A DNA stretch of 64,000 nucleotides from a virus. Positions 17,813 to 39,264 of this stretch are shown piece by piece. Location: the IMG/VR virus record IMGVR_UViG_3300042346_000326, positions 33,381 through 97,380 of that record; one strand, 5' to 3'. The notes below the pieces were generated by a model, which saw only the letters and a list, made by a program, of their open reading frames with translations, searched no databases and was not told the DNA's origin. How positions within the stretch are numbered: the first letter of the stretch is position 1; each line of letters begins with the position of its first letter. The position numbers were made by a program, and so were the translations under genes.

Positions 17813-18118
17813 ATGGCAGACTTTCTTAGCAGAGTGCAGTTCAAAAATCACTCTACTCCCTATGAGGACAAGATTGGGGCCCATTTAGGCAAGCAGCAGG
17901 TTGGATGGCTAGACCTTGATAAAGATACGGGTGTAGTTAATGAGGTATATGTTAAGGAGCAGCACCAGGGTAAGGGTATCGCCACAGGCATGTGGAAGCA
18001 CGCCCAGGAGTCTGGCTTAAATCCAAGACATTCTGATACTCGTTCCGAGTCTGGAGATGCTTGGGCGCAATCTCTTTATCAAAAGGGACTGGCTCCAGAA
18101 CCAGAGAGTATGGAATAA
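17813..18118 (+). CDS. GNAT N-acetyltransferase, compact
   Basis: 101 aa. The acetyl-CoA loop is clear: VNEVYVKEQHQGKGIATGMWKHA (written in part: EQHQGKGIA), with the Q-x-x-G-x-A/G signature near residue 50. The N-terminus MADFLSRVQFKNH carries the LSxxQF element shared by most proteins of this island. Short for a GNAT (usually about 140 aa), so it may be a minimal or partial fold. It should transfer an acetyl group to an amine; the target is unknown. First gene of the island; stop overlaps the next ATG (TAATG). Confidence 0.8.
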   Translation: MADFLSRVQFKNHSTPYEDKIGAHLGKQQVGWLDLDKDTGVVNEVYVKEQHQGKGIATGMWKHAQESGLNPRHSDTRSESGDAWAQSLYQKGLAPEPESME

Positions 18119-18444
18119 TGAGCAATCTAGGCCCTCAATTCGACCCCTTACAAGAGGCTAGGAGTATCAAGAACAATAAGAGCCGCCTAACTAGGACCCT
18201 AAAGGCCGTAGGACTAGAGCCACGGAGACGATTTAAGTCAAGAAGCGGAAAGGTATCGATGCAATCTGCAGGATTGGTATACACCGCTACAGATAGCAAC
18301 AGTACAACGGTCCACTACGCCACTGGTAGTCCTGGAGATAACAACGTGGAACCATATCATCAGCGGATACTAAAGGCCCTTATCGATGCCGACTACAACG
18401 CTTCAATGAAGGATGGCAAAATTCACGTACAGCACTCTATGTGA
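18118..18444 (+). CDS. Basic hypothetical protein of the effector island
   Basis: 108 aa starting MSNLGPQFDPLQEARSIKNN, closely like the MSNLGRQW start of the papain-like protein at 19.7 kb. The middle is Lys/Arg-rich (KNNKSRLTRTLKAVGLEPRRRFKSRSGK); the C-terminus reads as a small alpha/beta domain (PYHQRILKALIDADYNASMKDGKIHV). Function unknown. Translationally coupled to the GNAT before it. Confidence 0.7.
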   Translation: MSNLGPQFDPLQEARSIKNNKSRLTRTLKAVGLEPRRRFKSRSGKVSMQSAGLVYTATDSNSTTVHYATGSPGDNNVEPYHQRILKALIDADYNASMKDGKIHVQHSM

Positions 18445-18450
18445 TAGGCT
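18422..18450 (+). promoter_or_regulatory. Leaderless promoter for the 53-aa gene
   Basis: TTCACG-N17-TAGGCT, then 6 nt to the ATG at 18457. It overlaps the end of the previous coding sequence. Confidence 0.6.
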
Positions 18451-18456
18451 CTGTCT

Positions 18457-18618
18457 ATGAGCATCGAGAAGCGAATCGGCAAGGTATGGATATATTTTGG
18501 TTGGAACTTTAGAAGAGTTGCATTTGGAATCTCAGTAGACCGCTTTGAGATAGCGTTTGATTTTCTATTCTGGTACTTCACAATTGAATTTTGGCCAATA
18601 TTTTCCAGTAACGACTAG
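18457..18618 (+). CDS. Small aromatic-rich protein
   Basis: 53 aa, unusually rich in Phe/Trp/Tyr (WIYFGWNFRRVAFG, then FEIAFDFLFWYFTIEFWPIF). The C-terminal half may sit in or on the membrane. No ribosome site; the TAGGCT hexamer 6 nt upstream suggests a leaderless message. Function unknown. Confidence 0.6.
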   Translation: MSIEKRIGKVWIYFGWNFRRVAFGISVDRFEIAFDFLFWYFTIEFWPIFSSND

Positions 18619-18640
18619 TACCTCCCCTAGCAGATAAGAT

Positions 18641-18669
18641 TTCACGCTATCTTTTTTAGGCAGTAGCCT
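18641..18669 (+). promoter_or_regulatory. Promoter with GGCAGTAGCC element
   Basis: TTCACG-N17-TAGCCT, carrying the same AGGCAGTAGCC string at the same position as in the 17772 promoter. A second hexamer, CATAAT, lies 7 nt before the ATG at 18683. CTCATAA/TTATGAG forms an inverted repeat over that ATG. Confidence 0.6.
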
Positions 18670-18682
18670 CATAATACTCTTT

Positions 18683-18799
18683 ATGAGTAGCCTGTCTGCA
18701 AACCAATTCGTAATGCCTAAAGAGCAGTATGTAAATGTCGCCATGCAGATGATGCCTCCATCAGGGGCCACTAACACAGCAAGTAGCACCAAGGCATGA
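18683..18799 (+). CDS. Small protein of the effector island
   Basis: 38 aa: MSSLSANQFVMPKEQYVNVA then MQMMPPSGATNTASSTKA. Accepted because its stop overlaps the next ATG (ATGA) and a promoter lies directly upstream. The MSSLSANQF start is the shared island motif with almost nothing after it, as if a bare tag or leader peptide. Confidence 0.65.
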   Translation: MSSLSANQFVMPKEQYVNVAMQMMPPSGATNTASSTKA

Positions 18800-19329
18800 G
18801 CAGATACGCAGAGTTCAGTGATTCAGCAGGTCGCCACTATGTAGAAGGCGAGATGCCCGAACAAGTCAAATATCGTCACAAGTTATCTAACTTTGGAGAA
18901 CCTAGGCGCATCTCGGTCTATGACCCTAGTGACTCAACGCCACGTCGTGCTAGTGAACAGGGCCATATAGAAGAACATCCAAAAGGTGAACCTGGTCTTG
19001 TGGGATATGCAGATATCTATCGTGAAAAAGGCGGCGAACAATTCGGCACTCTAACAAATGCAGAGGGAAAGAAAGAGCCACTCATTAGTAAGGCCCATAC
19101 CAATATCGGCTTTGTAACAGTAGAACCCAAACATCGTGGTGGCGGCATATCAAAACAACTAATTAACTATGTAGATAAGACCACACCAAAAGATGCCCAA
19201 GTAAATTTTGGTGAGATTGCACACATCGGCATGGCCAAGATTGCTTCAAAGATGCAGGCAGAAAACCCAAGTCGTATTCATGCAAAAGACTTGTGGTACT
19301 ACAAAGACAAACTTAAGGAAGGCCAATGA
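18796..19329 (+). CDS. GNAT N-acetyltransferase-like protein
   Basis: 177 aa. The acetyl-CoA motif is IGFVTVEPKHRGGGISKQLI, with H-R-G-G-G-I-S around residue 116. The N-terminal region (RYAEFSDSAGRHYVEGEMPEQVKYRH) lacks the LSxxQF element. Full-length for the fold. Substrate unknown. It overlaps both neighbours by 4 nt. Confidence 0.75.
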   Translation: MSRYAEFSDSAGRHYVEGEMPEQVKYRHKLSNFGEPRRISVYDPSDSTPRRASEQGHIEEHPKGEPGLVGYADIYREKGGEQFGTLTNAEGKKEPLISKAHTNIGFVTVEPKHRGGGISKQLINYVDKTTPKDAQVNFGEIAHIGMAKIASKMQAENPSRIHAKDLWYYKDKLKEGQ

Positions 19330-19721
19330 AGAAGACGCCTCCTCCTAAAAATCCTAATGACAGAAGAAACCTGTCGGGGGTTCAGTTTAGATACTTTCCA
19401 CCTGAAGATAAGTACTCATTTCATGAACTACATGCCATCTCTCCAGATGCTTATAACAAGAACAGCAGAACAGGAAAAGGATTAGTCGTCGGGCGGTTGC
19501 AGTGGCATCCAAAGTCTGGTGAGGTCAATTGGGTGCGCACACACGAGAACTATCGAGGCCTAGGTGTCGCATCTACGTTATGGGAAAAGGCTAATAAGTT
19601 ATCTGCCGATACTGGAATAAGAGCACCCAAACATTCTAAGCACCGCACTGACCAGGGCGATGCGTGGGCAAAATCTGTCGGGGGCGTTACGCCATCACGA
19701 GCCAACTATGAGGAGTGGTGA
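19326..19721 (+). CDS. GNAT N-acetyltransferase-like protein
   Basis: 131 aa. Motif: VNWVRTHENYRGLGVASTLW (R-G-L-G-V-A). The part after the motif (APKHSKHRTDQGDAWAKSVGG) is strikingly like the same part of the 17.8-kb GNAT (PRHSDTRSESGDAWAQSLYQ), so the two are paralogues. NLSGVQFRYF near residue 16 carries the island motif. Overlaps both neighbours. Confidence 0.8.
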   Translation: MKKTPPPKNPNDRRNLSGVQFRYFPPEDKYSFHELHAISPDAYNKNSRTGKGLVVGRLQWHPKSGEVNWVRTHENYRGLGVASTLWEKANKLSADTGIRAPKHSKHRTDQGDAWAKSVGGVTPSRANYEEW

Positions 19722-20224
19722 TGAGTAACCTAGGTCGCCAGTGGAAACAGGACCCACTCATCATGACGCCAAAAGAATTAGAAGGCCATGTTCAAGATAC
19801 TCTAAAGTCAAATCCATTTAAAACAACTACAGAGAGAATTACAGATAACCCACATGGCGCTTGCTATGACGCTTCCTGTTTAATTCATGGCTATCTGCCA
19901 CATGGCTCACACGTCGCTGTCTATGGTGGAAAGCACCACGACCCAAAGTCTACAAATCCAGGAGACTGGTACAGCAATCACTTTGTACATCACGTACCTA
20001 CTACAGAGGGTATGCACGCTGTTGATTTGACGCATCGTCAATTTGATTCATCAGAGAAGACTCCCCTAGTAGAGCCACTACAGAAGTTTCAAGATAGAAA
20101 CGTAATGAAGGGCTTTAGAACTCTGCGCACTGATGCAGAGCACGCAAAGTTATACACAGAGGGTAGAAAGACCAAGCCTCTAGGTAAGAAGATGGCTAGA
20201 GAATTGCGCAGGGATGTCACATGA
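19721..20224 (+). CDS. Papain-like / transglutaminase-like fold protein
   Basis: 167 aa from the ATG at 19721 (AGGAG upstream; TGATG with the previous stop). GACYDASCLIHGYLPHG supplies a candidate nucleophilic Cys at a helix start; YSNHFVHHVPT supplies the His; MHAVDLTHRQFD supplies the Asp, all in the papain-fold order. It might be a protease, deamidase or acyltransferase acting on a host protein. The MSNLGRQW start matches the 18.1-kb protein. Fold call by motif only. Confidence 0.6.
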   Translation: MSNLGRQWKQDPLIMTPKELEGHVQDTLKSNPFKTTTERITDNPHGACYDASCLIHGYLPHGSHVAVYGGKHHDPKSTNPGDWYSNHFVHHVPTTEGMHAVDLTHRQFDSSEKTPLVEPLQKFQDRNVMKGFRTLRTDAEHAKLYTEGRKTKPLGKKMARELRRDVT

Positions 20225-20502
20225 GTGCATCAGATAACCTATCAAGCCAATTGTTTCATGGAACAAGGGCAAAGATAAAGGGACAGATAATTAACCCAGG
20301 TCCATCTGGATTTGCGTATGCAACAACTGACAGAGGTTCTGCAGAATTATTCGGCAAAACAAAGATGCCAGAAGGTGAACTAGGAGATAACAAGGTCTAT
20401 CGCGTTATGTCATTAGGAGAAACGACTACCAAGCCAGGTAACTTTAAGGGTGAGACTCACCACATCTCCGACACTGGCTTCTTGATATTAGGTGAAGCAT
20501 GA
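20221..20502 (+). CDS. Mini ADP-ribosyltransferase-like protein
   Basis: 93 aa. SSQLFHGTRAKIKGQIINPG followed by FAYATTDRGSAELFGK is the H-G-T ... A-Y-A-T layout of the small rifampin-ADP-ribosyltransferase-like group (H-Y class NAD-binding). The third catalytic position is unclear (HHISDTGFLILGEA). It could ADP-ribosylate a host protein, RNA or small molecule. Overlaps its neighbours by 4 nt. Confidence 0.7.
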   Translation: MSASDNLSSQLFHGTRAKIKGQIINPGPSGFAYATTDRGSAELFGKTKMPEGELGDNKVYRVMSLGETTTKPGNFKGETHHISDTGFLILGEA

Positions 20503-20927
20503 GCGCCCTATCTAACGAGTTATTTTTTGAAGCACATCGCGGACTTCGTCTAAAGGGCAAAGAAAAAGTTAATAAAGACGAATTAGGTATGCACTGGTCT
20601 GCAGATAGAGATAAAGCAGATGAGTTTGCAACAAAGCACATAAATTGGCCTGAGTGGGAACATGGCAAGACTTATCATGCCCAGATACCTGTATCTGCTG
20701 TAGAGACTGGATTCACTCGTCTACGTGACAGTGGCTTCGCTAACTTTGCTGGTAAAGACCCATTAGGTGAAAAGGAAGTGCCAGTAAAAGAGGGCGCTAC
20801 AGTAAAGGTCACAGGCGTTACTAGCCATCGTAGAACATACCTAGGACCTAACAAGACCGTTAATCAGGGAACGGCATTGAAGTCACGTACCCGTCGTTAC
20901 AACCCACCAAGAGAGATGAAGGCATGA
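20499..20927 (+). CDS. Divergent ADP-ribosyltransferase-like protein
   Basis: 142 aa. ELFFEAHRGLRLKGKEKV then GMHWSADRDKADEFATKH follows the ART order, but HGT is replaced by EAH and the Tyr by Trp, so NAD binding would be altered. QIPVSAVET and EVPVKEGATVKVTGV are the usual late strands. It starts MSALSNELF like its neighbours. Enzymatic status uncertain. Confidence 0.6.
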   Translation: MSALSNELFFEAHRGLRLKGKEKVNKDELGMHWSADRDKADEFATKHINWPEWEHGKTYHAQIPVSAVETGFTRLRDSGFANFAGKDPLGEKEVPVKEGATVKVTGVTSHRRTYLGPNKTVNQGTALKSRTRRYNPPREMKA

Positions 20928-21109
20928 CTTGTCGTCATGTCTATGAATATGTTGGGGCGGCAATATGTCCCGCGTGCGGGCGCGATACGCACGAACCAGA
21001 CACCGAACTTCATAACAAGTTGTTCAAAGAGCATTACGAGCAGGGCCGTCATCTGGTATACAAGTGTCCTGTAGAGGGCGGCACTATACGAGGTTGGTGG
21101 AGCATATGA
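20924..21109 (+). CDS. Small zinc-finger protein
   Basis: 61 aa: MTCRHVYEYVGAAICPACGR, HEPDTELHNKLFKEHYEQGR, then VYKCPVEGGTIRGWWSI. Cys3, His5, Cys15, Cys18 and Cys50 could coordinate zinc. It lies between two ART-like genes and overlaps both by 4 nt. Confidence 0.7.
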   Translation: MTCRHVYEYVGAAICPACGRDTHEPDTELHNKLFKEHYEQGRHLVYKCPVEGGTIRGWWSI

Positions 21110-21537
21110 GTGCACCTTTATCTGAACCGTTGTTTCATGGTTCAAGCCATCCCTTTAACAAGGGCGACATTATTAAGCCTATGGAGATGGACCACGCACA
21201 TGCCACAACAGATAAGGCATATGCCAATAACTACTCGACATTAGATGCAGAACGAGATTACAGTAGAGACCCAAAGTCTTTATTTACATATACCTACAAA
21301 GTCAGTCCTGTAGATGAAAAAGAGATGCACTCAGAGACAGAACCGTGGAGAACTGACCCAGTTAAAAAGAACCTACGTCTTGCTAAAGACATTCCTAATA
21401 TCTATGTGTCCAAAAAAGGATTTAAAGTAGAGGGCATCGAGTCAATGAGGGCGCACCCACAGATAGTTACAGATAACAAGGTTCTAGAGAACGCTCTGAG
21501 CGCTTGGAGACGAAAACGTGACAGAGAAGAGTCCTAA
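21106..21537 (+). CDS. ADP-ribosyltransferase-like protein
   Basis: 143 aa from the ATG at 21106. PLFHGSSHPFNKGDIIKP then DHAHATTDKAYANNYS, and FTYTYKVSPVDEKEMHSE, which offers a Glu near the expected C-terminal catalytic position. NIYVSKKGFKVEGIES is the closing strand. More canonical than the 20.5-kb copy. Likely a mono-ADP-ribosyltransferase acting on the host, by analogy with T4 Alt/Mod in role only. Confidence 0.7.
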   Translation: MSAPLSEPLFHGSSHPFNKGDIIKPMEMDHAHATTDKAYANNYSTLDAERDYSRDPKSLFTYTYKVSPVDEKEMHSETEPWRTDPVKKNLRLAKDIPNIYVSKKGFKVEGIESMRAHPQIVTDNKVLENALSAWRRKRDREES

Positions 21538-21719: not shown

Positions 21720-22271
21720 ATGACAACAATCATTGGAGTTCAGTACGAAGACCACTGCCTATTTATGGCAGATAATCAAGTTACATTAGATGGTGGTCGT
21801 CGTTACAAACACCCCGATATGAAAAAGATTAGCAAGGTAGGCGAATACCTTGTTGCAGGTTCTGGCGAAGTTGCACCATGCGATATTGCGCAACATCTAT
21901 GGACGCCACCTGCTATGTCTGCCAAAGACAGAAAAGATACTTATCACTTTGTTATTGCTAAGTTGATGCCATCGCTACGCAAATGTCTTGAAGACAATGG
22001 CTACGATTTCGATGAAGGCAAATCTGACGGCAAGTCAGGTGAATCACGATTCAATCTGCTTGTTGCCGCTAATGGTCAGATATTCGACATTGCCGATGAT
22101 ATGTCGGTCTGTATGTCAGATGCTGGCTTCTATGGCGTTGGCTCTGGCTCTCCATATGCATTAGGTGCTCTCTATGGTGGTGTTAAGCCAGAAAAGGCTA
22201 TGGCTGTTGCTGAGAAGATAGATGTCAATACTTCTGGGCCGTTTCAGAAAGAAGTTCAGTACAAGAAGTAA
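21720..22271 (+). CDS. HslV/proteasome-like Ntn hydrolase
   Basis: 183 aa from the ATG at 21720 (GGGGAG upstream). MTTIIGVQYEDHCLFMADNQ, with QVTLDGGRRYKHPDMKKISK next and VGEYLVAGSGEVAPCDIAQHLW after it, follows HslV: an N-terminal Thr after Met removal, the GDGQVT-like strand (ADNQVT), the Lys33-like position and the GG-AD loop. DDMSVCMSDAGFYGVGSGSPYALGALYGG matches the later G-x-G-S-P-xA helix. It should form rings and cleave peptides with Thr2; no ATPase partner is adjacent. It may process virion or host proteins. Confidence 0.75.
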   Translation: MTTIIGVQYEDHCLFMADNQVTLDGGRRYKHPDMKKISKVGEYLVAGSGEVAPCDIAQHLWTPPAMSAKDRKDTYHFVIAKLMPSLRKCLEDNGYDFDEGKSDGKSGESRFNLLVAANGQIFDIADDMSVCMSDAGFYGVGSGSPYALGALYGGVKPEKAMAVAEKIDVNTSGPFQKEVQYKK

Positions 22272-23900: not shown

Positions 23901-24303
23901 AGAACGCTTATCACCACAAGACCTAGACGCTAGATTAAAGTTTATTTTAGGAATCACACTAGGAACAATTCTTCTATGCACATCATTAGGCATTCTTTAC
24001 GGCCTCCTATTTGTGACACAGCCAATAGGTGCTCAGTCTGAGAACGACAAGATGTTCTTTAACGTTCTAGGAAGCGTAGCAACGTTTATCACAGGTACCC
24101 TGGCTGGTCTTCTTATTGGTCAGAGCGGTGCCAAAGATGTCATGAAAGCAGTTCAAGACAATAAAGAAATTGATGCCAAGAATACAAGAGAAGACAAGAA
24201 ATTAGAAGCAGAGATTGATGCTACAGCAGCACGTCTAGCAGCAAAGCCAGATGGCGCAATGCCAGAGGAACAGCCTGTTGATACAGATTGGGACAAAGAC
24301 TAA
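23893..24303 (+). CDS. Two-span membrane protein, holin candidate
   Basis: 136 aa. Two hydrophobic segments (about 17-41 and 57-79, the second GSVATFITGTLAGLLIGQSG) and a long charged C-terminal tail rich in Lys/Glu. This topology and the TAATG junction with the endolysin gene make it the best holin candidate in the window. Confidence 0.7.
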   Translation: MSKERLSPQDLDARLKFILGITLGTILLCTSLGILYGLLFVTQPIGAQSENDKMFFNVLGSVATFITGTLAGLLIGQSGAKDVMKAVQDNKEIDAKNTREDKKLEAEIDATAARLAAKPDGAMPEEQPVDTDWDKD

Positions 24304-24854
24304 TGGCAGACCAAGGAACAGCAGCACGCCTTATTGAAGTTGCTAAAGCAGAAATTGGCGTTATCGAAGGACCAAAAGATAATGAGACTAAGTACGGTGC
24401 TTATACTAAAGCCAACTTCCAACCATGGTGTGGTTCTTTTGTTATGTGGTGTGGCAACGAGGCTGGAGTAAAGATTCCTAACACTGTATACACACCAAGT
24501 GGAGCAGCGGCATTTAAGAAGGCTGGTGCATGGATTGACGGAGATGTTGCAGACCCAGAACCAGGAGATATAGCCTATTTTGATTTCCCATCAGATGGCG
24601 TCGATAGGATTTCTCACGTAGGTATTGTTATTAAAGACAATGAAGATGGCACTGTTTGGTGTATCGAAGGCAACACATCTTCTAAGAAGTCTGGAAGTCA
24701 AAGAAATGGTGGAGAGGTCTGCAAACAACTTCGGGCCTATAAGAAGAACAAGGCTAACGTAATGATTTCAATTGTTGGTTTTGGTCGTCCAAAGTTTAAA
24801 AAGACAGCAGAAAAAACTGAATCTTCTACCAAGTGTCCTACTTGCGGTAAGTAA
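24303..24854 (+). CDS. CHAP-domain endolysin
   Basis: 183 aa from the ATG at 24303. CHAP amidase/peptidase features: FQPWCGSFVMWCGNEAG with the nucleophile Cys, DRISHVGIVIKD with the His, and WCIEGNTSS with the polar third residue. PGDIAYFDFPSD is the usual linking strand. The C-terminal KCPTCGK is a possible zinc or binding tail. It should cut the peptide part of peptidoglycan at lysis. Confidence 0.85.
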   Translation: MADQGTAARLIEVAKAEIGVIEGPKDNETKYGAYTKANFQPWCGSFVMWCGNEAGVKIPNTVYTPSGAAAFKKAGAWIDGDVADPEPGDIAYFDFPSDGVDRISHVGIVIKDNEDGTVWCIEGNTSSKKSGSQRNGGEVCKQLRAYKKNKANVMISIVGFGRPKFKKTAEKTESSTKCPTCGK

Positions 24855-30848: not shown

Positions 30849-31068
30849 GTTCGCAGTACAAGGACATGCTGTACCATCATCCTCACACAGTCCAAGAGGA
30901 CCGTTTCCACCTGAAGTCCTAGCAGGACCTCAGAGAAGTTACGGCGATGACCATTCGGATTCCTTACATCCAGCACTAGACGAAGTACGCTTCTTCAAAT
31001 GTCGCGACTGCGAAGAGGTGCTTTTTGAGACTGAACTAGACAACCACACATGTGAGGAAGAAGAATAA
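30832..31068 (+). CDS. Small zinc-finger protein
   Basis: 78 aa. The C-terminal FFKCRDCEEVLFETELDNHTCEEEE has C-x2-C ... H-x-C, a zinc-finger set. The N-terminal half is Pro/Ser-rich (SSHSPRGPFPPEVLAGPQRSYGDDHSD). Overlaps both neighbours. Confidence 0.65.
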   Translation: MKVIRKFAVQGHAVPSSSHSPRGPFPPEVLAGPQRSYGDDHSDSLHPALDEVRFFKCRDCEEVLFETELDNHTCEEEE

Positions 31069-33102: not shown

Positions 33103-33110
33103 GGGTGCAT

Positions 33111-34688
33111 ATGGAAGAAGATAAGTTTGAAGAAATAAATCCTGAATTCTATCTTCAGGATGAACAACCTGTTGAAGAAGATGTAGAGGAACCTCTTGAT
33201 GAGTTATCCCAACAGTTTGTAGACAAACTCATTGACAAGATGCTTGAGTTTCTTAAAGTACTTGTTGGGCATGACCTGCACCCTTATCAAAAGCCTCTTG
33301 CTCGTCGCATTATGGAATCAGTTATCATTAATGATGGCGAAGAAATAACAGCGTTAGCATCGCGTCAGTCAGGTAAGTCAGAGACGGTTGCAGACACGGT
33401 GGCTACTATGATGATTCTTCTTCCACGCCTTGCAAAGTTGTATCCAGACCTTCTTGGAAAATTTAAAGATGGAATTTGGGTTGGATTGTTTGCACCAACC
33501 GAAGCACAGGCTGAGACTCTCTTTGGTCGCACTGTTACTCGTTTAAGTTCAGAGCGTGCTGTTGAAATCATGGATGACCCAGAAATTGACGACACAGCCG
33601 CACGCGTAGGCGGGGTAACACGTCAGATTCGTTTAAAGAAATCTGGTTCTACTATCACAATGATGACCGCTAACCCAAGAGCAAAGATTGAGTCTAAGTC
33701 ATTCCATCTTGTAATCATTGATGAGTGTCAAGAAGCAGATGACTTTGTTGTGTCGAAGTCCATCTCTCCTATGTTGGCTTACTATGCAGGAACAATGGTT
33801 AAAACGGGAACGCCAACAACAAGTAAGAATAACTTCTATCGTGCTATACAGTTAAACCGTAGACGACAAACAGGACGCGCTGCAAGGCAAAACCACTTTC
33901 AATGGGATTGGAAAGACGTTGCTAAATTCAACCCAAATTATGAAAAGTTTATTCGTAAAGAAATGCTGCGTATTGGGGAAGACTCTGATGAATTTCAAAT
34001 GTCATATAATTGCAAATGGTTGCTAGAACGAGGAATGTTTGTTACGTCATCTATAATGGACGAACTAGGTGACACTTCACAAGAGTTAGTTAAGTCTTGG
34101 CACAAGACTCCTGTTGTTGTTGGAGTTGACCCTGCACGTAAGACTGACTCAACAGTTGTTACGATTGTGTGGGTTGATTGGGATAGACCTGATGAGTTCG
34201 GATACTTTGACCATCGCATTCTCAATTGGTTAGAGATGCAGGGAGATGATTGGGAAGAGCAGTACTATCAAATAGTTAACTTCCTTGAGAACTACGACGT
34301 ACTTGCTGTTGGTGTTGATGCTAACGGTGTAGGTGATGCAGTCGCACAACGACTTAAGTTACTCTTACCAAGAGCAGAGGTTATGTCCTTGACATCTAGC
34401 CCATCAGAACAGTCGAAGCGTTGGAAACACCTACAAGCACTACTCCAACGCAAAATGATTTCTTGGCCTGCCCATGCTAAAACTAGGCGCCTAAGAACAT
34501 GGAAACGGTTCTATCAACAGATGGTTGACGCAGAGGTTCAGTACAAAGGTCCTAACTTCCTTGTAGCCGCTCCTGATGAGTCTTACGCACACGATGACTT
34601 TGTAGACTCCCTTGCTATAGCCTGTTCCTTAACTCAGGACCTCGTTATGCCAGAAGTTGTGGCTTCAAGTAATCCTTTCTTTGGTTAG
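33111..34688 (+). CDS. terL: Terminase large subunit
   Basis: 525 aa from the ATG at 33111 (a GTG at 33105 is an alternative). ATPase: adenine-binding/Walker A ALASRQSGKSETV, Walker B FHLVIIDECQEAD, coupling TGTPTTSKN. Nuclease: VGVDPARKTDSTVV supplies the first Asp, GVDANGVGD the second and YAHDDFVDSLA the third acidic cluster of the RNase H-like fold. It packages DNA into the prohead through the portal and cuts it. No small terminase subunit was recognised nearby. Confidence 0.93.
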   Translation: MEEDKFEEINPEFYLQDEQPVEEDVEEPLDELSQQFVDKLIDKMLEFLKVLVGHDLHPYQKPLARRIMESVIINDGEEITALASRQSGKSETVADTVATMMILLPRLAKLYPDLLGKFKDGIWVGLFAPTEAQAETLFGRTVTRLSSERAVEIMDDPEIDDTAARVGGVTRQIRLKKSGSTITMMTANPRAKIESKSFHLVIIDECQEADDFVVSKSISPMLAYYAGTMVKTGTPTTSKNNFYRAIQLNRRRQTGRAARQNHFQWDWKDVAKFNPNYEKFIRKEMLRIGEDSDEFQMSYNCKWLLERGMFVTSSIMDELGDTSQELVKSWHKTPVVVGVDPARKTDSTVVTIVWVDWDRPDEFGYFDHRILNWLEMQGDDWEEQYYQIVNFLENYDVLAVGVDANGVGDAVAQRLKLLLPRAEVMSLTSSPSEQSKRWKHLQALLQRKMISWPAHAKTRRLRTWKRFYQQMVDAEVQYKGPNFLVAAPDESYAHDDFVDSLAIACSLTQDLVMPEVVASSNPFFG

Positions 34689-34758
34689 CCACACAAAGTA
34701 TCAAAAAGGGTGGAAACTATTACCAGGTATACCTAAACCTAGAAACAAGGAGTCTCCA

Positions 34759-35154
34759 ATGGCTATTTCACCAGCACCTCGCTTTCCAGAGCGTGCACCT
34801 AATGTCTACGAACGCAAGATGAGCGACAACCCAGTACGCCGTGGACCACTACGCTTTGAAGAAGGCGTTGCAACAGATACCGATGTTCCAACTGATTTCC
34901 AAAAGGGAATGGCACAGGGTTCCGCTGTAGCAGCAGGTCGTCCAAATCGTAATGCACCTGTATGGCAGAAGCCTGCCGCTGAAACTCTTTCAGAGCGTGC
35001 ACATGTCGGTTCCGCTGCTTGGATTGAAGCACCTACAATGTTAGGTGAGTTTGCGCATGGCACATACACAGACCGTGCAGAGCAGACAATTGAGACTGTT
35101 GTACGTTCAGGTGGACGTCAACAGCGCCCAGCACCAACAGTCGTAAACGACTAA
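34759..35154 (+). CDS. Hypothetical structural protein
   Basis: 131 aa from the ATG at 34759 (AAGGAG upstream). Largely disordered and Pro/Arg/Ala-rich (PAPRFPERAPNVYERKMSDNPVRRG, RPNRNAPVWQKP). Lies between terminase and portal. Not recognised. Confidence 0.65.
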   Translation: MAISPAPRFPERAPNVYERKMSDNPVRRGPLRFEEGVATDTDVPTDFQKGMAQGSAVAAGRPNRNAPVWQKPAAETLSERAHVGSAAWIEAPTMLGEFAHGTYTDRAEQTIETVVRSGGRQQRPAPTVVND

Positions 35155-35172
35155 TTAATTTAGCAACCTGAC

Positions 35173-35200
35173 CCCGCTCATACGGTAGTGTATGGGCGGG
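35173..35200 (+). promoter_or_regulatory. Intergenic hairpin
   Basis: CCCGCTCATAC / GTATGGGCGGG, 11 pairs (one G-T), 6-nt loop. No T-run; lies 24 nt before the next start, so it may shape translation or RNA stability. Confidence 0.5.
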
Positions 35201-35223
35201 AACAGGCTATCTGGAGGAGTTCA

Positions 35224-35481
35224 GTGAGAAAACCCGCTAATCCAAAACTGTATGCAATGTTTGTTGCACAGGCAAAGGCTAAGTATTCAACATGGCCTAA
35301 TCCTGGTGCAAGTGCATGGGTTGCTAAAAAGTATCAACAAGCAGGCGGTCAATACGTAGAAACAACTGAAGCAGACCGTCGTAAAAAAATGGCAATAAAG
35401 AAACAACAGCATGAACAAGAAAAGAAACGTTCTGTAAAAAAAGATAATAAAAAATCCGAAAAGGATAAAGGCAAGAAGTAA
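35224..35481 (+). CDS. Small basic phage protein
   Basis: 85 aa from a GTG with GGAGGAG upstream. NPKLYAMFVAQAKAKYSTWPNPGASAWVAKKYQQAGGQYVE resembles the 57.1-kb protein (WSARKAQLLASEYKKAGGGYKN), so both belong to one small family. The tail is almost all Lys/Glu. Stop overlaps the portal ATG. Confidence 0.75.
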   Translation: MRKPANPKLYAMFVAQAKAKYSTWPNPGASAWVAKKYQQAGGQYVETTEADRRKKMAIKKQQHEQEKKRSVKKDNKKSEKDKGKK

Positions 35482-37217
35482 TGTCATTTCTAGATTTCAC
35501 GCCACCGTCTTATAGAGCGGCGTCATCTGACCTTACGATTTCTATTTCACCTCTTGGTCTTGTAGAACTTGCTGACGAAGAATTTGAGGTTCACGGTCCT
35601 CGTCTAAACCGTTATTCGCTCAACTGGGCAATGTACTTAGGGCATCACTGGGGTTATCGTCGTGAACAAGGCGAAATGCAAATTGCCGTTAATTACTATC
35701 GCGCTTTCAATGATTATCTTGCAAGGTTTGTCTTTGGTCGTGGAGTTCATTTTCGTTCTCCTAAATCGACTGAAGCAATTATTCCAGACCGCTTAGAGCG
35801 CATTTGGGAAATTGACAATGACAAGATGCGTGTTCTACTTGAGATGGGACAGCAGGGCGGTATTACTGGCGATGTTTTTGTAAAAGTAGCATACGAAGAG
35901 CCATGGACAGACTCTGCTGGCATGTTCCATCCTGGACGTGTTCGCATTCTTCCTATGAACTCATCTTTCTGCTTCCCTGAATTTCATCCACACGACAGAA
36001 CACGCCTACTTCGCTTTAAGCAGAAGTATCGTTTCTGGGGAACTTCTCTTGAAGGTACTCGCCAAGTATTTACTTACACTGAAATTTTGACTGACGATGT
36101 TATTGAAGAGTACATCAACGATGAACTCATTGATTCACGCCCAAATCCACTAGGACTTATTCCAGTGGTACATATTCCTAACGTTCCTGTTTCAGGTTCA
36201 CCGTGGGGTCTCTCGGACGCACACGACATCATCACTATCAACCGTGCATATAACGAAATTAGCACTGATGTTGCAGACATCATTAACTATCACGCTTCTC
36301 CTGTGACAGTTATCGTTGGTGCTAAAGCCTCTAACCTTGAGAAAGGTGCTAAGAAGGTTTGGGGCGGTCTTCCAAAAGACGCCCAAGTCTTCAATCTTGA
36401 AGGTGGCGCATCAGGTATTGATGGCGCTTTGAAATATCTTGAGTTATTAAAACGCTCAATGCACGAAATCATGAACATTCCAGAAACTGCGCTTGGACAA
36501 GTCCAGCCAATTTCTAATACATCAGGTGTTGCTCTTTCTATTCAGTATCAGCCACTGATGAATCGCTACTCTCAAAAGGTAGCCCAGTATGGCAAGGGAC
36601 TAGAGCGAATCAATGAACTTGCACTTCGCACCCTTGCTATCAAGGAACCACAAACATTTTTATATAATCCAAATGAAGATGGGCCAATCAAGGAAGGTCA
36701 ACTAGACCGTCTTGACCCAAATGACCCACTTTCATATATGAACTATGTACAGTTCCCACCTCCATTACCATTAGACAAACTAATTGTGCTTAACGAAATT
36801 CAGACCAAACTTGGTATGGGTCTTGAGTCTAAAGAGGGGGCACTTCGTACTCTTGGTGAAGAATTCCCAGAAGAGAAGTTACAAGAGATTCGTCGTGAAC
36901 TTGTTGAAGATGCTAAGGCAGACGGAGCCCTCACTCTTGTCCGCGTTCAGATTCAAAAGCAGATTCAAGACATGACAGGTATGATGCCAGGACCTGATGG
37001 AACAAGCGCAGTTCCGCTCCAACCTACTGAACTAGGTGATGGAGATATCATGGGAGATGGCGTAGAAGGCGCTCCTTCACCTGAGAATATCGAAAACCCA
37101 GTCAATCAAGAGGCTGAGGCTATTAATTCACAGGCAGAAGCCGCTATCCGTGAAACGCTACTAACCCAAGCCTATGGAACAAAGATTCCACAGAGAAGGG
37201 CAGTAGATAGAGAATAA
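35481..37217 (+). CDS. Portal protein
   Basis: 578 aa, typical portal length. The recognisable blocks are NWAMYLGHHWGYRREQGEMQ and VNYYRAFNDYLARFVFGRGVHF near the N-terminus, GDVFVKVAYEEPW (wing), TINRAYNEISTDVADIINYHASPV, the MNIPETALGQVQPISNTSGVALSIQYQPL clip/stem region, and an acidic disordered tail. It forms the dodecameric DNA gate at one capsid vertex. Placed between terminase and scaffold as expected. Confidence 0.88.
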   Translation: MSFLDFTPPSYRAASSDLTISISPLGLVELADEEFEVHGPRLNRYSLNWAMYLGHHWGYRREQGEMQIAVNYYRAFNDYLARFVFGRGVHFRSPKSTEAIIPDRLERIWEIDNDKMRVLLEMGQQGGITGDVFVKVAYEEPWTDSAGMFHPGRVRILPMNSSFCFPEFHPHDRTRLLRFKQKYRFWGTSLEGTRQVFTYTEILTDDVIEEYINDELIDSRPNPLGLIPVVHIPNVPVSGSPWGLSDAHDIITINRAYNEISTDVADIINYHASPVTVIVGAKASNLEKGAKKVWGGLPKDAQVFNLEGGASGIDGALKYLELLKRSMHEIMNIPETALGQVQPISNTSGVALSIQYQPLMNRYSQKVAQYGKGLERINELALRTLAIKEPQTFLYNPNEDGPIKEGQLDRLDPNDPLSYMNYVQFPPPLPLDKLIVLNEIQTKLGMGLESKEGALRTLGEEFPEEKLQEIRRELVEDAKADGALTLVRVQIQKQIQDMTGMMPGPDGTSAVPLQPTELGDGDIMGDGVEGAPSPENIENPVNQEAEAINSQAEAAIRETLLTQAYGTKIPQRRAVDRE

Positions 37218-37236
37218 GTTTCCAACTATAAAAAGT

Positions 37237-37266
37237 TTGGAATATATCGAGACAATTGCGTATAAA
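37237..37266 (+). promoter_or_regulatory. Sigma70-like promoter before the scaffold gene
   Basis: TTGGAA-N18-TATAAA, about 75-80 nt before the scaffold start. AATTGC/GCAATT around it forms a short palindrome. The 121-nt gap is the longest in the head operon, consistent with strong capsid expression. Confidence 0.55.
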
Positions 37267-37338
37267 TGTACTGCAATTATCTCATAATAACTAAGGGACA
37301 CGCCGCAAGGCATACGGACAACGACATAAGAAAGATAA

Positions 37339-38103
37339 GTGACTACTATGGAAAACGCAGTAGACGAAACAAATATTACTGAGATGCAAATCCCAGTAGA
37401 TGTACAAATGAGTGGAGATATGCCTACCTATTCTGCTGATGACATTGCGAAAGCACGTGAGCAGGAAAAGGCAAAACTTTATCCTCAGTTAGAAAAGATG
37501 AAAGAAGAACTCGCTTCTCTGAAAAGAGAGCGTGAAGAAGTGGCAGCCCGTGAAGCAGAGCGTCAATCACGCATTGCTGATGAGGAAGCCCGTGCAGCAC
37601 AGTTGAAGAAGGAACAGGAAGAAAACGAACTGTCCTTCAAAGACCTTCTCAAAAAGAAGGAGCAAGAATTTCAATCTCAGTTAGAGAATGAGCGTCTTGA
37701 AAGAGAACGTGCTATCGCACTCCTTGAACAGGAACGCAAGTTCCAAGAGTTGATGAACTATCGTCAATCTCGATTAGAGCAGGAAAGAGATAACATCATT
37801 CCTGAACTTATTGATTTAATTGAAGGTGGTTCACAAGATGAAATAGAGCAGAGCATCTCAACTCTGAAAGACAAATCTGCTCGAATTTTAGACTCCGCTC
37901 AACAGGCTATGCAGTCTGCTAGAGCACAAATGGCAGGACCACGCGTTACAGCGCCTGCCGCAGGACCCCTCGATAATGACTCGTCACAACAATCGTTTAC
38001 TCCTGATTCAATCAGGGATATGTCATTGGCAGACTATGCGAAACAAAGAGCCAAATTACTTGGCAATGCAGCATCAAATCGTGGTCAGGGACTGTTCGGT
38101 TAA
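37339..38103 (+). CDS. Capsid scaffolding protein
   Basis: 254 aa. After a short N-terminus, residues about 35-160 form one long Glu/Lys/Arg/Gln coiled coil (EKMKEELASLKREREEVAAREAERQ...). The C-terminus (SLADYAKQRAKLLGNAASNRGQGLFG) is the usual capsid-binding end. Position just before the major capsid gene supports the role. GTG at 37339 or ATG at 37348 may be the start. Confidence 0.85.
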   Translation: MTTMENAVDETNITEMQIPVDVQMSGDMPTYSADDIAKAREQEKAKLYPQLEKMKEELASLKREREEVAAREAERQSRIADEEARAAQLKKEQEENELSFKDLLKKKEQEFQSQLENERLERERAIALLEQERKFQELMNYRQSRLEQERDNIIPELIDLIEGGSQDEIEQSISTLKDKSARILDSAQQAMQSARAQMAGPRVTAPAAGPLDNDSSQQSFTPDSIRDMSLADYAKQRAKLLGNAASNRGQGLFG

Positions 38104-38136
38104 TCCACACAACTATCTAGAAAGGACTTGACCTAA

Positions 38137-39264
38137 ATGGCAAGTGCAATTACAGGTACTGGTCAACTAGCCAGCGCCCCTACCGCTTATTCAGGCTCCA
38201 ATACAAGCCTTAATCAAGCAATTCAAACAATCTGGTCGAAGGAAATCCTCTTCCAGGCAATGCCAATTCTTCGTTTTGAACAGTTTGCAGTTAAGAAGAC
38301 TGAACTAGGAGTTGCTCCTGGTCTTCGTGTGAACTTCCTTCGTTACAAGAACTTTGCAGTAGACCCATCTCCTCTAACAGAAGGTGTTCGTATGACAACG
38401 AACGCTCTTACTGCAGAGCAGATTGCTATTACTGTTGCAGAACACGGCTACGCAGTAGCAGTTTCTGAACTTCTTCTAAATGCATCCTTCGATGACGTGA
38501 TGGCTTCTGCTTCACGTCTTCTTGGTCGCCACATGGCACAGTACCTAGATGTACAGGCACGTAACACACTTTCTGCAGCAACTTCTGCAGTATTTGGTTA
38601 TGACCGTTCTGCACTTCAGGGTGTTAATGACTGGTACAACGAAGGAAGCGCTGCAACACAGTTCTCAGACCTCGATGGTAACTACAAGTTATCTACAGGT
38701 GCTGTCAAGGATGCTGCTCTTACCCTTGCTGGTAAGAACATCCCACGCCTTGGTGAGACATACGTACAGTTCGTACATCCAAAGCAGTCACGTGATATCC
38801 GTTCGAACCCAGAGTTCATCGAGGTAACAAAGTACGCTGCTCCAGGAAACTTCATGCTCGGTGAAATCGGACGTCTCTATGACGTAGTATTCATCGAAAC
38901 AACACAGGTTAAGAAGTTGGCTGTTAACGCTTCTTATACAACTTCAACAAGCGTAGGAGTTCCTGCGTCTCAGATTGAAGTACCTGTTAAGGCTAACACT
39001 CGCCCAGGTTCAGGCGGTAACCCAGAGTCTGCAGATTTCACTGCTGAAAAGGGTTATTTGACTTCTGCAACTGGAAACGGTGCTGAGGTTTACGAGTCCA
39101 TCATGATTGGTGACAATGCATTTGGTCACGCAATCTCCCTCCCAGTTGAACTCCGCGATGGTGGCGTTCTCGACTTCGGTCGTGAGCACGCTCTTGCTTG
39201 GTATGCAATTTGGGGTCTTGGTGTTATCACAGACCAGGCTATCGTCAAGGTCTACACCAACTAG
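38137..39264 (+). CDS. Major capsid protein (HK97 fold)
   Basis: 375 aa with AAAGGAC before the ATG. N-arm (IQTIWSKEILFQAMPILRFEQFAVKK), E-loop region (GLRVNFLRYKNFAVDPSPLTEGVRM), spine/P-domain (QIAITVAEHGYAVAVSELLLNASFDDVM), and a late A-domain part (YVQFVHPKQSRDIRSNPEFIEVTKYAAPG), the order of N4gp56-type major capsid proteins. Forms the icosahedral shell. Confidence 0.9.
   Translation: MASAITGTGQLASAPTAYSGSNTSLNQAIQTIWSKEILFQAMPILRFEQFAVKKTELGVAPGLRVNFLRYKNFAVDPSPLTEGVRMTTNALTAEQIAITVAEHGYAVAVSELLLNASFDDVMASASRLLGRHMAQYLDVQARNTLSAATSAVFGYDRSALQGVNDWYNEGSAATQFSDLDGNYKLSTGAVKDAALTLAGKNIPRLGETYVQFVHPKQSRDIRSNPEFIEVTKYAAPGNFMLGEIGRLYDVVFIETTQVKKLAVNASYTTSTSVGVPASQIEVPVKANTRPGSGGNPESADFTAEKGYLTSATGNGAEVYESIMIGDNAFGHAISLPVELRDGGVLDFGREHALAWYAIWGLGVITDQAIVKVYTN

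Follow-up and report, generated by a model that had tools for sequence, protein, structure and literature searches.

The 64,000 nt of DNA studied here (positions 33,381-97,380 of the 97,380-bp IMG/VR virus record IMGVR_UViG_3300042346_000326; hereafter the window) contain a compact gene island at 17,813-21,537, in which small proteins of unrelated fold share one short N-terminal element. This tag occurs in two forms, NLSxxQF and NLG[RK]Q[FW] (MSNLGRQW and MSASDNLSKRQF are examples of tag-bearing N-termini). It is carried by GNATs, Arr-like ADP-ribosyltransferases (ARTs) and a papain-like (SseI/PMT-type) family, the last showing both forms (NLGRQW, NLSKGQW), as well as by ParB-like proteins, an HExGH metallopeptidase and several small families. 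An earlier note on the island had proposed that unrelated folds bear one common tag. This is strongly supported by our analysis and extends to many more families and phages, the tag being found across ~100 related viral contigs. That the tag is a genuine element with a function is, in our view, almost certain. On balance, and by analogy with known systems, we cautiously favour a label that directs the tagged proteins into the virion. A literature search found no paper describing the tag.

Recurrence and conservation of the tag

Related loci were collected with the HslV-like gene next to the island as bait (80 loci), and additional loci came from scans with GNAT, ART, ParB-like and metallopeptidase alignments. 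The pattern L[SG]x(1-2)Q[FW] lies within the first 30 residues of 49 of 244 non-redundant island open reading frames (ORFs); 200 shuffles gave 0.2 on average and 2 at most. Per residue, the pattern is ~46 times rarer in the remainder of the same proteins. A slightly wider motif is present within the first 30 residues in 127 of 1,492 representatives (60% identity) vs 1.6 after shuffling; a segment of equal size further in yields 9. Since the pattern was derived from the examples of the earlier note itself, three checks outside it matter. Asn at position -1 of the tag, which was not part of the selection, is found in 40 of the 49 representatives. An unbiased count of residue pairs ranks L-S, L....F, N-L, S...F and Q-F highest and recovers N-L-S-x-x-Q-F. 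Moreover the tag recurs in phages that were found later via other genes. All these statistics treat sequences as independent, which related sequences are not. Hence the family counts are the safer figure: in the first set the tagged bodies form 21 BLAST clusters, several of them ARTs.

The tagged proteins have a median length of 114 amino acids (aa) and are somewhat basic. Depending on the family, the tag is located at residue 3 or at residues 15-22. Among 20 GNATs with bodies 31-76% identical, the tag (L16, S17, Q20, F21) and a few fold residues are the only invariant positions. In metallopeptidases of 28-42% identity L3, G4, Q6 and F7 are invariant together with HExGH. The tag is encoded using all six Leu, all six Ser, both Gln and both Phe codons and is therefore conserved at the protein, not the DNA, level.

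Two tag-like stretches, LSQQF in the terminase (33204) and GGHHRVALSAEQF in ParB, were judged to be chance; homologues have other residues there. Zinc-finger GNATs without the N-terminal tag end in LLS[PA]RQM (L007:5411-5947, L024:4053-4598), possibly a C-terminal form of it. A Gly-rich protein of the lysis/head region (window:25150-25620 and relatives, e.g. L028:9945-10355) carries (N/S)LSTQF internally, around residue 47-69. This stretch is mostly conserved, reading NLAAQF in L007, and may be an internal tag or mark an adaptor.

Island genes and their folds

The island genes, all on the plus strand, overlap by 1-4 nt as the earlier note had stated, with the exception of a 238-nt gap ahead of the gene at 18683. 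The eight tag strings it had listed are present as written. The island starts with a GNAT of 101 aa (17813..18118, LSRVQF at 17825-17842). It is followed by a small protein whose ATG start at 18118 lies in a TAATG overlap (18118..18444, LGPQF at 18127-18141). Its body has no homologue among 13 related genomes and matches Pfam only weakly (DUF637, 0.036). The gene at 18683..18799 encodes a 38-aa mini-protein with the tag (LSANQF at 18692-18709) and the conserved tail YVNVAMQMxPPSxATNTASSTKA. Across the related loci 17 versions of this protein were found, 38-60 aa long (e.g. window:18683-18799, L024:4595-4720, L138:9984-10106). Their tail, YVNVAMQMxPPSxASNTASSTKA, is near-invariant and was found on no other protein.

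Two further GNATs had been assigned, one of 177 aa (18796..19329) and one of 131 aa (19326..19721, LSGVQF at 19371-19388). Pfam supports the GNATs at 17813 (Acetyltransf_7, 2e-6) and 19326 (Acetyltransf_1, 1.4e-4) above cut-off, whereas the one at 18796 remains below it (Acetyltransf_7, E=0.002) and is without the NLSxxQF tag. Its N-terminus, MSRYAEF, fits a minor second N-terminal class. No relative of the tagged GNAT was found in bacterial genomes.

The papain-like protein (167 aa, SseI/PMT-type deamidase-like; 19721..20224, LGRQW at 19730-19744) belongs to a family, A9, in which C48, H87 and D102 are conserved as invariant Cys, His and Asp. Seven of ten members match Tox-PLDMTX weakly (best 0.037). 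The top Foldseek match of the model is SseI, a papain-fold effector domain, which is not significant (probability 0.80, E 0.1, template modelling (TM) score 0.37).

Three ART-like proteins had been proposed. Two of them, ART 1 (93 aa, 20221..20502, LSSQLF at 20239-20256 within a merged NLSSQLF-HGT) and ART 3 (143 aa, 21106..21537, LSEPLF at 21118-21135), hold as Arr-like via their family, A8. Pfam Arr-ms is matched by 15 of its 34 members (best 3e-8) and ART-PolyVal by 4; the window's own two members have no Pfam match at E<=0.1. The family profile finds structures of rifampin ADP-ribosyltransferase (Arr; 2hw2/9iaf, E=1e-4) with the HGT motif aligned. For the ART model, predicted with a mean local distance difference test score (pLDDT) of 86, the best PDB matches are to KptA, another ART-like fold, and are weak with an E-value that is not significant. 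The remaining protein (142 aa, 20499..20927, LSNELF at 20508-20525) has no match in Pfam or PDB and could not be confirmed as an ART. Its alignment with the A8 ARTs gives a profile match of probability 92, partly due to the tag itself, and its relatives have NLGRQW or NLSPKQF ahead of the domain. A CxxC protein of 61 aa (20924..21109) is untagged, as are all of its 23 relatives.

Searches of cultured phages found no relatives of the ParB-like protein or of the metallopeptidase. The ParB-like assignment draws on a weak match to ParB_N in one member (4.3e-5, below cut-off). The metallopeptidase-like proteins are large (375-650 aa), start with M[PAT]LG[RKS]QFxNT and match no significant Pfam family; they are located at L111:8359-9801, L095:7997-9511, L141:7505-9193, L199:6001-7920 and L191:4277 and 6001.

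The tag is not a core part of the modelled folds; the opposite outcome would, according to the earlier note, have refuted its reading. In the papain-like model it is disordered (residues 1-10 with pLDDT < 50), and in the ART model it is a low-confidence N-terminal helix ahead of the first strand. For the ARTs the note had voiced doubt, as the LF of the tag overlaps the LFHGT motif. This doubt is resolved because tag and core stand apart in relatives (NLSKRQF-PPMYHGT in L007, NLSEQQFGP-MYHGT in L034). In other ARTs the two are merged, as NLSxxLFHGT or APLSxxLFHGT. The window's three are among these, their tag having either fused with the core strand or lost its Gln to it. Homologues without the tag, which had been counted as evidence against a common targeting role, do exist: an ART in Snenia, a GNAT in Phabba and the whole GNAT family of 18796 (0/9 tagged). 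We take them to mean that the folds do not need the tag.

Genome context and a second label

PHROG matches in the window (terminase, portal, major capsid, sheath, endolysin) identify a contractile-tail phage, for which megablast against phage records gave no match. It seemingly belongs to a family of freshwater phages whose host is likely actinobacterial, since its major capsid protein is 59-62% identical to those of the Streptomyces phages LuckySocke, BRock and GiJojo. The island adjoins an untagged HslV-like Ntn peptidase gene (21720..22271, plus strand, phrog_1040 3e-27). Most relatives likewise have this gene next to the island; in L199 it is located between terminase and portal. Farther downstream, again on the plus strand, follow the endolysin (24288..24854, PHROG lysis families) and the conserved head module of terminase, portal, scaffold and major capsid (33105..39264).

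In the window phage and in genomes G003 and G006 the tags are found almost only in the island, which immediately precedes the lysis, terminase and capsid genes and shares their strand. The exceptions are an ISPKQF protein encoded at record position 30,926 and, in G003, two low-complexity proteins of small size. L199 has a tagged metallopeptidase gene between those for terminase and portal. A 60-aa zinc-binding-looking protein with the N-terminus MAKISPKQF (L003:12926-13108) bears a tag variant distant from the island and outside the late block.

Within the main group the head proteins are well conserved (capsid 87-100%, terminase 82-97% identical) and the island genes are often absent or <50% identical. 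To judge from these identities, a conserved head combined with a changing island is the pattern of a variable cargo behind a constant label. The closest cultured head module is that of LuckySocke, BRock and GiJojo, with terminase, portal and scaffold in the same order as in the window phage. Unlike the window phage, these three show no tagged island in the regions searched, and no tagged genes were found in the parts searched of LuckySocke, BRock and DSL-LC01.

In G001 and G002 (capsid 87% identical) the same enzyme families carry a second label. MG[RA]N[NK]xDF is found at or near the start of three ARTs, two GNATs and one 61-aa structural-region protein. Two other proteins, one of them the metallopeptidase, keep LG[PK]QF, and a complete tag swap in G001 was rejected on this ground. 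L194/L195 have the related label MGR[NS]N[GS]DF. N-termini of the form MG[RAS][NS][NK]xDF are located at L116:3817-4746, L117:2867-4335 (G001/G002) and L194:10022-10896.

Proposed packaging and its alternatives

As a transferable N-terminal cargo label, NLSxxQF / NLG[RK]Q[FW] would be bound during head building by a phage-encoded assembly component, putatively the scaffold, the portal or the inner capsid surface. Made at the start of the lysis-head-tail block, the island enzymes would be loaded into the particle via the label. Ejected together with the DNA they could act on the next host by modifying its proteins or nucleic acids and so may serve in host takeover. The label would remain constant and the enzymes behind it would turn over rapidly. 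The presumed late-gene position, the tagged protein between terminase and portal and the set of domains known from polyvalent proteins fit packaging. A guess at the receptor from the divergence of scaffold and capsid in the MGRNNxDF phage was rejected as not specific, the whole phage being more distant.

The closest parallel is phage T4, whose internal proteins are a highly diverse set with only the capsid-targeting sequence (CTS) in common (PMC3012670). As with the T4 CTS (IPI-III, Alt), a short N-terminal sequence is common to diverse, unrelated small proteins of one phage, i.e. a constant label with diverse bodies. In contrast to T4, the sequence here is NLSxxQF, there are more fold classes per genome and related phages have a second label. 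Scanning the proteins between portal and capsid revealed no recognisable prohead protease, though no search aimed at one was made.

Polyvalent proteins, in turn, are predicted to be packaged and injected (PMC5512222). The tagged set resembles them (P1 DarB/DdrB, N4 vRNAP-like) in its ART, with a match to ART-PolyVal, GNAT, ParB-like and metallopeptidase domains, and polyvalent proteins are often located near late genes. However, they fuse several effector domains in one large polypeptide, whereas here each small gene encodes one domain and the label takes the place of fusion. The tagged proteins are therefore not members of the polyvalent class, although they may work in a similar way. According to accounts of encapsulin cargo-loading, a short peptide motif picks the cargo for an HK97-fold shell (PMC8346489, PMC10960027). 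Encapsulins are, however, a cellular compartment with few cargo types, and for the phage tag the capsid is one candidate receptor among several.

Several points weigh against packaging. The island lies on the same strand as, and at the start of, the lysis/head/tail block, and its late expression is presumed from this gene order only. Next to it there is also a divergent intergenic region (16.2-17.8 kb) from which early genes could be expressed. A promoter/terminator scan gave nothing above chance and no usable evidence on timing, and a literature search for virion proteomics on tagged proteins found none. The cultured Streptomyces relatives have the same head module and are tag-free where searched, so the head does not require tags. 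Moreover G001/G002 combine two labels despite a capsid that is 87% identical, and some island enzymes are unlabelled.

The main competing explanation, which we consider rather unlikely, is a docking motif inside the infected cell that binds one host or phage hub (e.g. RNA polymerase, ribosome or phage assembly), with the enzymes acting in the same neighbourhood. Docking agrees with the nature of the motif, which is short, N-terminal, contains a hydrophobic/aromatic pair (L...F/W) and occurs on many small modifying enzymes. Early expression of the island from the divergent region would also agree with it, and action within the cell is plausible for ParB-like proteins and ARTs. Such a role is at odds with the island heading the lysis/head/tail block, with the tag on low-complexity small proteins near structural genes (F10, F12) and on a metallopeptidase within the head module, and with these families bearing a second label in phages whose capsid is 87% identical.

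Quite improbable is a degradation or processing signal, e.g. one read by the adjacent HslV-like peptidase and setting the amounts of the enzymes. The window and many relatives have the peptidase gene directly downstream of the island. Yet it was not found in G001/G002 (94.5 and 74.8 kb), where LG[PK]QF and MGRNNxDF tags are present, and for this reason such a signal is disfavoured as the main explanation. Some loci that lack a tagged island have HslV-like genes as well, and our annotation identified no HslU.

We give hardly any credence to the ARTs being toxins against eukaryotic grazers ("Trojan horse"), with the tag as release or targeting signal. This was proposed for freshwater phage ARTs, VIP2-like ones being reported from 24 freshwater phages, some predicted on Actinobacteria (PMC6802176), but the ARTs here are Arr-like domains of ~100 aa, too short to include parts for secretion or translocation, and the same tag is present on GNAT, ParB-like and peptidase proteins. 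Equally implausible is a functionless by-product (duplicated 5' ends with ATGA-overlapping starts, or a part of each fold): the ATGA overlaps do account for the initial MS and the tag does merge with the LFHGT strand in the window's three ARTs, but the full synonymous codon diversity, the position of the tag at residue 3 vs 15-22, the insertion variants LGRQW/LSKGQW inside one family, its location outside the modelled cores and its retention at 28-42% body identity largely refute it.

With the tag, candidates for injected effectors can be picked by sequence alone in uncultured phages, most of whose small genes lack a known function. It also allows a test of how common the pre-loading of enzymes by a short address peptide is among phages other than T4, and it suggests that effectors of the polyvalent type may be delivered as separate labelled proteins. 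If packaging is confirmed, no larger natural cargo-loading system of phages is known to us, and HK97-type phage heads could be loaded with proteins by means of a working minimal tag; if not, the tag would point to a new intracellular recruitment system.

A third label, MAAHE[SN][LI]S[DE]YQF, was found in L150. Beyond this, 18 representatives vs 1.4 after shuffling fall into a loose class with [SGA]Rx(2-3)[DEHN]F close to the N-terminus; it was defined post hoc and is exploratory, and it would take in the window GNAT at 18796 (MSRYAEF). Tentatively, and with less confidence than for packaging itself, we propose a modular sorting code in which lineage-specific labels (NLSxxQF, MGRNNxDF, MAAHExxSxxQF, perhaps MSRxxxFDAGHG) would each mark unrelated effectors for one receptor, effectors being exchanged by re-labelling. 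L192, L193 and L203 encode several proteins with M[SA]R[RT]x[HN]FDAGHG-like N-termini, possibly a further label.

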